From the NCBI RefSeq assembly GCF_036010665.1, contig NZ_CP108581.1, positions 3,019,501-3,083,500 of the forward strand: a stretch of 64,000 bases of DNA, given 5' to 3'. Positions within the stretch are counted from its first letter, which is position 1. Every line of letters starts with the position of its first letter. Shown piece after piece: positions 7,859 through 10,955 of the stretch. Position numbers and translations under genes: made by a program. The DNA is from Microbispora sp. NBC_01189 (GTDB taxonomy: Bacteria > Actinomycetota > Actinomycetes > Streptosporangiales > Streptosporangiaceae). The notes under the pieces were generated by a model, which was not told where the DNA came from, made no database searches, and saw nothing but the letters and a program-made list of their open reading frames with translations.

Positions 7859-9145
7859 TCAGAGCAGGTATCGCAGCCAGAGGTACGGCGTGGCCAGGGC
7901 CACGGTGACGACGGTGACCACCAGGCCGTACTTGGTGAACTCCCAGAAGCTGATGCGCGCGCCGTTGCGCTCGGCGATGCCGAGGATGACGACGTTGGCG
8001 GAGGCGCCGACGGCGGTGGCGTTCCCGCCGAGGTCGGCGCCCAGCGCGAGGGCCCACCACAGGACGTTGTGGTCGCCGGGCACGTGCTGGGCGAGGTCGG
8101 CCACGATCGGGCTCATCGTGGCGACGTAGGGGATGTTGTCCACGATCGCCGACAGCCCGGCCGAGGCCCAGAGCAGGACCAGGGCCGTCACGCCCGGCCG
8201 CCCGGCCGTCGCCTCCGCCGCCGCCTGCGACACCTGGGCGATCACGCCGGTCTCGACGAGCGCGCCGACCATCACGAAGAGCCCGGCGAAGAACACCAGC
8301 GTCGGCCACTCCACCTCGCGCAGGGCGTCGTCCGTGGTGACCTTGGTGACCAGCACGAGCAGCCCCGCGCCGAGCAGCGCCACGACGGACGGCTCGTAGT
8401 GCAGCACCGGGTGCAGCACGAACGCGGCGATGACCACCCCGAGCACGGACAGGCTCTGCACGAGCATGACCCGGTCCTCGATGGCCGCCTTCTCGTCGAG
8501 CTGCATGATCTCGGCCGCCCGTTCCGGGTCGTACCGGAAGGCGCTGCGGAACAGCACCCGGCACAGCCCGATGAACACCGCCGTCAGCACGATCACCAGC
8601 GGCGCCAGGTGGACGAGGAAGTCGTTGAAGGTCAGGCCGGCGCGGGAGGCGATGATGATGTTCGGCGGGTCGCCGACGAGCGTCGCGGTGCCGCCGATGT
8701 TGGACGCCATCGCCTCGGCGATCAGGAACGGCGCGACCGGCAGGGCGAGGCGCTCGCAGACGAGGAACGTCACCGGCGCGATCAGCAGCACGGTCGTGAC
8801 GTTGTCCAGCAGCGCCGACGCCAGGGCCGTGATCACCAGGAGCAGCACCATGAGCCGGAACGGCCGCCCCCTGGCGCGTTTGGCGGCCCAGATCGCCAGG
8901 TATTCGAACACGCCGGTCTGCCGCAGCACGCCGACGATGATCATCATGCCGAGCAGCAGGAAGACGACGTTCCAGTCCACGCCCGACTCCTGCGAGAAGA
9001 ACGCGGAGCCGGCCGCCGTCGCGTGGACCAGCAGCATGATCGCGGCGCCGCCCAGGGCGGCCTTGACCCGGTGGATCTTCTCGCTCGCGATGAGGACGTA
9101 GGTGGCGGCGAAGACGATCGACGCCACCCAGGCGGTCACCGTCAT
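7859..9145 (-). CDS. ArsB/NhaD-type (SLC13-like) ion transporter
   Basis: A 428-aa membrane protein with about 11 helices. Two repeats each contain a re-entrant signature: [15 protein letters not shown] with [14 protein letters not shown] in the first half, and [13 protein letters not shown] with [14 protein letters not shown] in the second. This is typical of ArsB/NhaD permeases, which move arsenite, Na+/H+ or anions; the substrate is not decidable. I chose the ATG at 9145, with GGAGG six bases upstream; a TTG at 9148 is an alternative. That GGAGG appears to lie inside the end of the inserted TnpB element. The CBS protein gene upstream was probably its operon neighbour. Confidence 0.87.
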
Positions 9146-9279
9146 CAAGATCCTCCGTGGAAACCCCCGCCTTCAGGCGGGGAGGAATCGGACTCCTTGC
9201 GGAGCGGGGCGGGGGTAGGCGTTTCGCCGGAAGGCGAACCGCTGTGCGAATTCACGCGAGCGTCAGCTGATCGGGTGGC

Positions 9280-10398
9280 ATGATGTGCGGGGTGGCGCAG
9301 ACGGTGAAGCGGGCCTACAAGTACCGCTTCTATCCCACCCCCGAGCAGGCGTCCGGGCTTGTCCGGACGTTCGGGTGCGTGCGCCTGGTCTACAACAAGG
9401 CGTTGGAAGAACGCACCCGCGCCTACACCCTGGAGGGCCGCCGCGTCTCCTACGCGGAGTCCTCGGCCGCGTTGACGGCGTGGAAGCGGACCGAAGAGCT
9501 GGCGTTCCTGGCCGAGGTGTCGTCCGTGCCGTTGCAGCAGGCGCTGCGGCACCTGCAGGCCGCCTTCGCCCACTTTTTCGCCAAGCGGGCCAGGTACCCC
9601 ACCTTCAAGTCGCGGAAGAAGTCGCGGGCGTCGGCCGAGTACACCCGCTCGGCGTTCCGCTACCGCGACGGCCGGCTCACGCTGGCGAAGATGGACGGCC
9701 CGCTGGACATCGTGTGGTCGCGTCCACTCCCGCAGGGGGCGCAGCCGTCCACGGTGACGGTGAGCAAGGACGCGGCGGGCCGGTGGTTCGTGTCTCTCCT
9801 GGTGGAGCAGACCATCGACCCGCTCGACCCGGTGGGGAACACGGTTGGCGTGGATGCGGGGATCACCGCCCTGGTGACTCTCTCGACCGGTGAGAAGATC
9901 ACCAACCCCCGGCATGAGCGGGCCGACCGGCGCAAGCTGGCCAAGGCGCAGCGGGCCCTGGCCCGCAAAACCGCGGGCAGCAGCAACCGGGCCAGGGCCA
10001 GGGTGAAAGTCGCCCGCCTGCACGCGCGGATCGCCGACCGGCGCCGGGACTTCCTGCACAAGCTGTCGACTCGACTCGTCCGCGAGAACCAAACGGTCGT
10101 GATCGAGGACCTGACCGTCCGCGCCATGGTCAAGAACCACTCGCTGGCCCGCGCCGTCTCCGACGCCTCCTGGCGGCAACTGCGGTCGATGCTGGCGTAC
10201 AAAGCCACGTGGTACGGGCGGGAACTCGTGGTGATCGACCGGTGGTTTCCCAGCTCGAAGCTGTGCTCGGCCTGCGGGGCACTGCGGAAGTCGATGCCGC
10301 TGAACGTCCGGGCCTGGGAGTGCGCCTGCGGCGCGGTCCATGACCGGGACGTCAACGCCGCCAGGAACGTCCTCGCCGCCGGGCTGGCGGAGAGGTGA
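9280..10398 (+). CDS. tnpB: TnpB, RNA-guided transposon-associated nuclease
   Basis: A 372-aa OrfB/TnpB protein starting at one of two consecutive ATGs. The N-terminal KRAYKYRFYPTPEQ wedge start is typical. RuvC residues appear intact: D192 (VGVDAG), E276 (VIEDL) and D357 (HDRDVNAARN). The zinc finger has C329/C332 and then C348-A-C350, a C-x-C instead of the common C-x-x-C. TnpB is guided by an RNA made from the element's right end and cuts sites next to the transposon-adjacent motif, helping retention. Length and domains suggest an active protein. Confidence 0.93.
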   Translation: MMCGVAQTVKRAYKYRFYPTPEQASGLVRTFGCVRLVYNKALEERTRAYTLEGRRVSYAESSAALTAWKRTEELAFLAEVSSVPLQQALRHLQAAFAHFFAKRARYPTFKSRKKSRASAEYTRSAFRYRDGRLTLAKMDGPLDIVWSRPLPQGAQPSTVTVSKDAAGRWFVSLLVEQTIDPLDPVGNTVGVDAGITALVTLSTGEKITNPRHERADRRKLAKAQRALARKTAGSSNRARARVKVARLHARIADRRRDFLHKLSTRLVRENQTVVIEDLTVRAMVKNHSLARAVSDASWRQLRSMLAYKATWYGRELVVIDRWFPSSKLCSACGALRKSMPLNVRAWECACGAVHDRDVNAARNVLAAGLAER

Positions 10399-10521
10399 AA
10401 CGCCTGTGGAGCTGGTGTAAGACCTCAACGGAGTCCTCTCGGACGAGGCGACCGGCAGCGAAGCAGGAAGACCAACCTGTGAGGGTTGGAATCCCCTCCC
10501 TTCAGGGAGGGGGGATGTCAA
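10399..10521 (+). ncRNA. Candidate omega (reRNA) region at the TnpB element right end
   Basis: Guide RNAs of TnpB are formed from the 3' end of tnpB through the right end. After the tnpB stop this region folds into a small hairpin (CCAACC/GGTTGG, 10472-10489) and the terminal hairpin (10493-10512). The guide would begin just after TCAA at 10521, that is in the CBS gene. The position is by analogy; the 5' limit is unknown and may lie within tnpB. Confidence 0.4.
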
Positions 10522-10955
10522 GCGAGCCGCTTGAGCAGCGCGGAGAGTGTCACCGCGCCCAGCAGGCGGCCGCCGTCCAGCACCGCGACCAGGGGACTGC
10601 GGGTGCGAGCCATCAGCGCGCCGATCTCCAGAAGGGTGGCGTCCGGGTCGGTGACCGGCAGCTCGCGCGGACGCTCCGGCAGGGCCTGGCGGACCGTGCG
10701 ATCGCCCAGCGCGCGCACGAACGCGTCGGCGTGCGCCTCGTCGATCACCCGGGCCAGCGCGGGGTCGTCCTGGCAGTAGCGGGGCACGGCCAGGCGCAGC
10801 ACCTGCGTGCCGGGCAGGATCGACACCGGCGTGCCGCGCTCGTCCAGCACGATCAGCCCCGGCAGTTCGCGTTCGGCCATGAGGCGCGCGGCCTCGGCCA
10901 CGGGGGAGTCGAGCCCCACTGTGGGGAACGGCACTAGGAGATCCCGGGCGCGCAT
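10518..10955 (-). CDS. CBS-domain pair protein
   Basis: A 145-aa protein from the ATG at 10955, with AGGTGAG upstream. Two CBS units are seen: PFPTVGLDSPVAEAARLMAE...LIVLDERG and ELPVTDPDATLLEIGALMAR...LVAVLDGGRLLGAVTLSALL. CBS pairs bind adenine nucleotides and often gate transporters. Its TGA lies at the right end of the TnpB element and is followed, beyond the element, by the ArsB/NhaD-type transporter. A role in controlling that transporter is inferred from the ancestral operon. Confidence 0.87.
   Translation of the reverse strand: MRARDLLVPFPTVGLDSPVAEAARLMAERELPGLIVLDERGTPVSILPGTQVLRLAVPRYCQDDPALARVIDEAHADAFVRALGDRTVRQALPERPRELPVTDPDATLLEIGALMARTRSPLVAVLDGGRLLGAVTLSALLKRLA

Follow-up and report, generated by a model that had tools for sequence, protein, structure and literature searches.

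A tnpB-only IS200/IS605-type element at a stop/start overlap in Microbispora sp. NBC_01189 re-supplies the upstream stop codon and brings a Shine-Dalgarno sequence to the downstream start

How can a mobile element sit exactly in the overlap of two genes and leave both of them with a stop and a start codon? In Microbispora sp. NBC_01189, two minus-strand genes, encoding a CBS-domain protein and a transporter, flank a plus-strand tnpB. The initial annotation of this locus proposed that a TnpB element had been inserted where the CBS stop overlaps the transporter start. The window analysed here is the whole stretch of 64,000 nt (contig NZ_CP108581.1, positions 3,019,501 to 3,083,500), to which all positions refer (Table 1).

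Table 1 Positions of the tnpB element, its end signals and the two flanking genes in the window
Feature	Position	Strand	Basis or remark
tnpB element, whole, tnpB-only IS200/IS605-type (CAAGATCCTCC...GATGTCAA)	9146..10521	+	1376 nt; precise empty site TCAT/GCGAG in relatives
Target / left cleavage tetranucleotide TCAT	9142..9145	+	Empty-site alignment; bottom strand ATGA, i.e. transporter ATG plus A, including the former CBS stop TGA
Outward-facing Shine-Dalgarno GGAGG, 6 nt before transporter ATG	9152..9156	-	Sequence; conserved in siblings; absent from empty site
Left guide GAAA, predicted to pair with TCAT	9160..9163	+	IS608 pairing code; guide/target counts
Left-end subterminal hairpin CCCCGCC-TTCA-GGCGGGG	9165..9182	+	Sequence
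tnpB, 372 aa, RuvC catalytic residues conserved	9280..10398	+	PF01385, PF07282, PF12323
Putative omega-RNA scaffold	10362..10521	+	Sub-threshold Rfam match sot0042 at 10362-10513
Right guide GAAT	10489..10492	+	Identical to IS608 GR
Right-end subterminal hairpin CCCCTCCC-TTCA-GGGAGGGG	10493..10512	+	Sequence
Right cleavage tetranucleotide TCAA; bottom-strand TTGA restores CBS stop in register	10518..10521	+	Identical to IS608 CR; empty-site alignment
CitMHS/ArsB-type transporter, start codon = target (ATG at 9145-9143)	7859..9145	-	PF03600, PF02040
CBS-domain protein, TGA lay in ATGA target (stop now 10520-10518)	10518..10955	-	PF00571

A search with the joined flanks across the genus yielded 12 relatives with an uninterrupted site, the flanks being 91–97% identical. 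On the bottom strand, this empty site runs from the CBS gene through GCATGACG into the transporter gene (...CTC GCA TGA CGG...), with GTGA in one of the 12 relatives. Their alignment shows that the CBS gene, ending in TGA, and the transporter gene, starting with ATG, overlap by 4 nt. TCAA is present at both 9145–9148 and 10518–10521, and only the right copy is wholly the element's. Because these two copies are near-identical, the element had been drawn as 9149–10521, its deletion leaving GCTTGATGACG. All 12 empty sites are 3 nt shorter than this predicted junction, which rules out TTGATGACG as the ancestral sequence. The exact model, which the initial annotation had tied to this very comparison, is thus refuted. 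Since the relatives lack three bases of the predicted junction, the element comprises 9146–10521 with TCAT as its left flank. It was inserted 3' of TCAT, the antisense of ATGA, and this target was neither duplicated nor lost.

The insertion at a stop/start overlap itself is confirmed by the empty-site alignment, and the true junction fits the original idea better than the predicted one. At the right end, the CBS stop is now read from TTGA of the element, in the register that ATGA had, with a silent change of the final CBS codon from GCA to GCT (Ala). No Shine-Dalgarno sequence is found upstream of the transporter start in the empty site of the relatives, and the left end of the element supplies one. 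Hence both the re-supplied stop and the gained ribosome site stand. Since the empty site has no such sequence and the left end brings one, independent initiation would replace coupled initiation. Judged from the sequence, the insertion would be nearly neutral for both proteins and would uncouple their translation, as had been suggested.

This layout is the rule for the family and not one lucky insertion. In the strain's own genome (7.37 Mb), nine other near-full-length copies with 85–90% DNA identity were found, plus more distant pieces and left-end remnants. The search for copies here used only BLAST and no selection by motif. For eight of these further copies, empty sites were found in relatives, again with TCAT joined directly to the flank; extra changes were seen for L008 (9 nt in the flank) and L006 (1 nt). 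A purine-rich Shine-Dalgarno-like tract precedes the target in all 10 BLAST-defined copies (nine GGAGG and one GGAAGG, in L005). ATGA is retained in nine of the 10, a one-base change leaving TTG in L006, and bottom-strand GGAGG-N5-7-ATGA is found in eight as well as in both left-end remnants shown. The expectation that GATCCTCC belongs to the sibling left ends holds in part: this string is not invariant, while a Shine-Dalgarno complement (CCTCC or CTCCTT) is generally found at 4–7 nt from the start codon. One gene junction, with a glycoside hydrolase family 1-like product by eye, carries apparently two independent insertions (L008/L087 and, separately, L056). There, the true ATG lies 8–9 nt beyond the target in the empty allele. 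In both filled alleles this spacer is gone and the Shine-Dalgarno sequence sits 5–6 nt from the start.

Copies were also gathered from the genus, from 151 genomes of the family and from 80 named actinomycete loci, including Streptomyces, Actinomadura, Nonomuraea, Microbispora and Planobispora. Both ends were located in 111 copies, corresponding to 108 independent loci, which were classified by a codon model. As a null, all 275 ATGA sites of this one 64-kb window were used, with the simple codon model being trained on the window. At 76 of the 108 loci the element directly adjoins a coding start whose frame has no upstream continuation, against 17/275 window sites, and this result is not biased by the end-finding motif beyond TCAY. 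The target lies inside a 4-nt stop/start overlap at 40/108 loci (4/275 in the null) and contains an upstream stop at 49/108 (5/275). Neither side is coding at only 7/108 loci, compared to 64/275 window sites, and at 23 of the 108 sites both a coding start and an upstream stop are lacking. TCAT is found at 100 loci and TCAC at the remaining 8; one or the other was a condition for locating a left end. For copies beyond the own genome, left ends were identified with a motif that includes TCAY and a pyrimidine tract. Target and Shine-Dalgarno frequencies are thereby inflated outside the BLAST-defined set and are not independent evidence there. A hairpin-anchored extraction with no Shine-Dalgarno requirement places TCAT or TCAC 17–24 nt before the hairpin in most copies. 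Two non-coding mini-elements of the same genus are located directly before ATGA and retain the Shine-Dalgarno sequence: one of about 80 nt consisting of left and right ends only (L096:1472-1555) and one with a single hybrid hairpin (L097:1524-1580).

The target choice matches the guide code of IS608. In the IS608 structures, the fourth guide base pairs with target position -1. Base one of the guide pairs with target position -3 and base two with -4; TTAC is recognised by AAAG at the left end and TCAA by GAAT at the right end (PMC5934647). In 46 TCAT copies the left guide is GA[AGT]A, and GANA with TCAT matches this code. The right ends combine GAAT with TCAA, identical to IS608. A diverged subfamily (about 57% TnpB identity) is flanked by TCAC, the antisense of GTGA, and its guide is mostly GAAG; members L071, L078, L080 and L088-L092 appear as a parallel GTG-start version. 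TnpA-bearing IS605 elements of these genomes have TCTAC at their left border, and their AGTG is read as CTAC by the IS608 code. With subterminal hairpins whose 5' guides match the cleavage sites by predicted pairing, and with insertion 3' of a fixed tetranucleotide without target duplication (empty sites, 9 copies), the element belongs to the IS200/IS605 superfamily.

The ribosome site appears to be built into the element. Three left-end forms were found, CCTCCGAGG, CTCCTTGAGCG and CTCCTTCGTGG, which differ in their distance to the hairpin. A GGAG-type core is located 4–7 nt from the start codon in 95/111 copies, a frequency raised by the end-finding motif outside the BLAST-defined set, and this spacing is kept in subtypes whose Shine-Dalgarno-to-hairpin distance varies. 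The median predicted anti-Shine-Dalgarno duplex energy is -9.0 for filled sites, -6.4 for the displaced native leaders and -2.7 for random sequence, and in 42 of 50 copies the filled site is predicted to pair more strongly than the native leader that was displaced. Copies at starts and elsewhere are equally strong (-9.0 and -8.9), and therefore the Shine-Dalgarno sequence is an inherited element trait and not a host-gene repair. The tract is absent from the left ends inspected of TnpA-bearing relatives targeting CTAC. It may have evolved for translation.

TnpB aligns with TnpB of PDB 8h1j (E 2.7e-64), with the RuvC D, E, D catalytic residues conserved, as is typical of RNA-guided TnpB nucleases; unlike in TldR, RuvC is thus not inactivated, the residues aligning with those of a solved TnpB. 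The right end gives a weak, sub-threshold Rfam match to sot0042. Because the position relative to the right end is as in ISDra2, the guide of the putative omega-RNA would begin at 10522 and be antisense to the 3' end of the CBS gene. Since the element encodes only tnpB and no Y1 TnpA, it is tnpB-only, or IS1341-like. Five PF01797 genes are located elsewhere in the own genome, with different ends, and among the TnpA loci scanned none was found with the same left ends. Six TnpA-bearing IS605-type loci (L304, L310, L315, L316, L322 and L327) share the GAAT...TCAA right end and are candidate trans-mobilisers; the left ends inspected among these loci differ from those of the element and carry no Shine-Dalgarno sequence. 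Four genomes of the family (G030, G036, G042 and G047) have tnpB family members and no Y1 TnpA match, TnpA being lost, too diverged or missing from the assembly. A Y1 TnpA would presumably act on the element in trans.

Could the same picture arise from ordinary IS605-type insertion into any TCAT, with the start bias reflecting survivors of purifying selection and the Shine-Dalgarno-like tract being accidental, e.g. serving TnpA contacts or another DNA function? TCAT is indeed the only target signal, no other flank base being strongly conserved, and the tract is as strong in non-start copies as in start copies. However, starts are in excess even over sites with neither side coding (76:7 compared to 17:64, odds ratio about 41). 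An accidental tract is also difficult to reconcile with a distance to the ATG that is kept while the distance to the hairpin varies, with three sequence forms that are all good Shine-Dalgarno sequences, and with its lack in the CTAC-targeting relatives. This explanation is rather unlikely. That more than TCAT actively guides the machinery towards gene starts or operon junctions, for example exposed single-stranded DNA or extended pairing, would account for the depletion of neither-side-coding sites relative to starts. We find this improbable, as the flanks lack an extended sequence signal and the host pairs are unrelated (by eye from translations, ABC permeases, tryptophan dioxygenase/kynureninase and VWA/SWIM proteins), and selection after insertion would yield the same picture.

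The constant orientation of tnpB, always antisense to and pointing away from the adjoining gene, could suggest a domesticated regulator of the downstream gene, either TldR-like or acting by antisense control. With intact RuvC residues, unrelated host genes and insertions that are polymorphic within the genus, such a role is very improbable; it was rejected based on the catalytic residues. Scarcely credible is continued coupling by ribosomes translating an antisense frame through the element. In the window copy, such a frame is open for 458 codons (10521-9145, minus strand, from TTG of TTGA to TGA of TGATG), but in siblings the phase of the open antisense frame varies among all three possibilities, and the TTG frame is usually closed by a stop after 6–56 codons. 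The antisense ORF was therefore rejected as a coupling device and judged to be due to chance, its phase to the ends not being conserved in siblings.

Compared to known systems, the element resembles IS608 of Helicobacter pylori (IS200/IS605) in its right guide GAAT and right cleavage site TCAA, in the guide located 5' of the hairpin, in insertion 3' of a tetranucleotide without duplication and in the C after the left cleavage site (PMC5934647). It differs in using TCAT with GANA instead of TTAC with AAAG, in lacking tnpA, in the outward-facing left-end Shine-Dalgarno sequence and in the position of its copies at start codons. Its TnpB is homologous to that of ISDra2 (Deinococcus radiodurans) over its length, with the catalytic residues conserved, and an ISDra2-like omega-RNA from the right end is expected (PMC8612924). 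The TAM or target is TTGAT in ISDra2 and TCAT here, as inferred from insertions; no report of a Shine-Dalgarno sequence or start-codon bias in ISDra2 was found in the literature searched. Like IS1341-type elements, the element carries tnpB between IS605-type ends without tnpA, and its right end is sotRNA-like, with a weak match. With TldR, it shares TnpB homologues located beside genes; in contrast, its RuvC is intact and its host genes differ from copy to copy. Targeting of start codons or stop/start overlaps, or a built-in ribosome site, was not found for IS605, TnpB or IS1341-type elements in the literature searched, which lay mostly outside subscription journals.

Based on these data, it is quite probable that this IS200/IS605-type, tnpB-only (IS1341-like) element has a guide that reads the start codon and ends that make insertions translationally near-silent. 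Single-stranded TCAT would be selected by the DNA guide of the left end (G-A-N-A), which lies immediately 5' of the hairpin there. One class of enterable sites would be the starts of ATGA genes, most often 4-nt ATGA overlaps; many other TCAT sites would fall in coding sequence, where insertions would be lost by selection. Insertions into ATGA starts and overlaps would persist because TCAA, the right cleavage site, reads TTGA on the bottom strand and leaves the upstream gene a stop in the same frame where ATGA had been, and because GGAGG (or AAGGAG) from the left end comes to lie 4–7 nt ahead of the retained ATG. In place of coupled reinitiation, ribosomes would initiate at the Shine-Dalgarno sequence, about 1.4 kb further downstream on a transcript reading through the element, and transcription would have to cross this 1.4 kb antisense to tnpB. 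Translation of both genes is probably preserved after insertion, as far as the junctions suggest, and selection has probably shaped the element ends so that these insertions are harmless. ISDra2 TnpB is proposed to keep its element by cutting empty alleles (PMC8612924). By analogy, TnpB of the present element may cut empty alleles at TCAT, as TAM, plus a right-flank guide, thereby keeping the element.

For the family as a whole, we lean slightly towards a lineage whose DNA guide is matched to start codons read in antisense (TCAT for ATGA, TCAC for GTGA) and whose ends were both selected to restore translation signals, with overlaps forming a near-harmless, genome-wide niche. If true, this would be a mobile element reducing its cost to the host by fitting its target code to gene organisation and carrying its own repair signals. 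The TCAT, TCAC and CTAC variants in related elements would put the IS608 guide code to a natural test, and the TAM of many actinomycete TnpB nucleases would become predictable. Among close relatives, an operon junction can be found both filled and empty, and such pairs would also offer a natural experiment on translational coupling.
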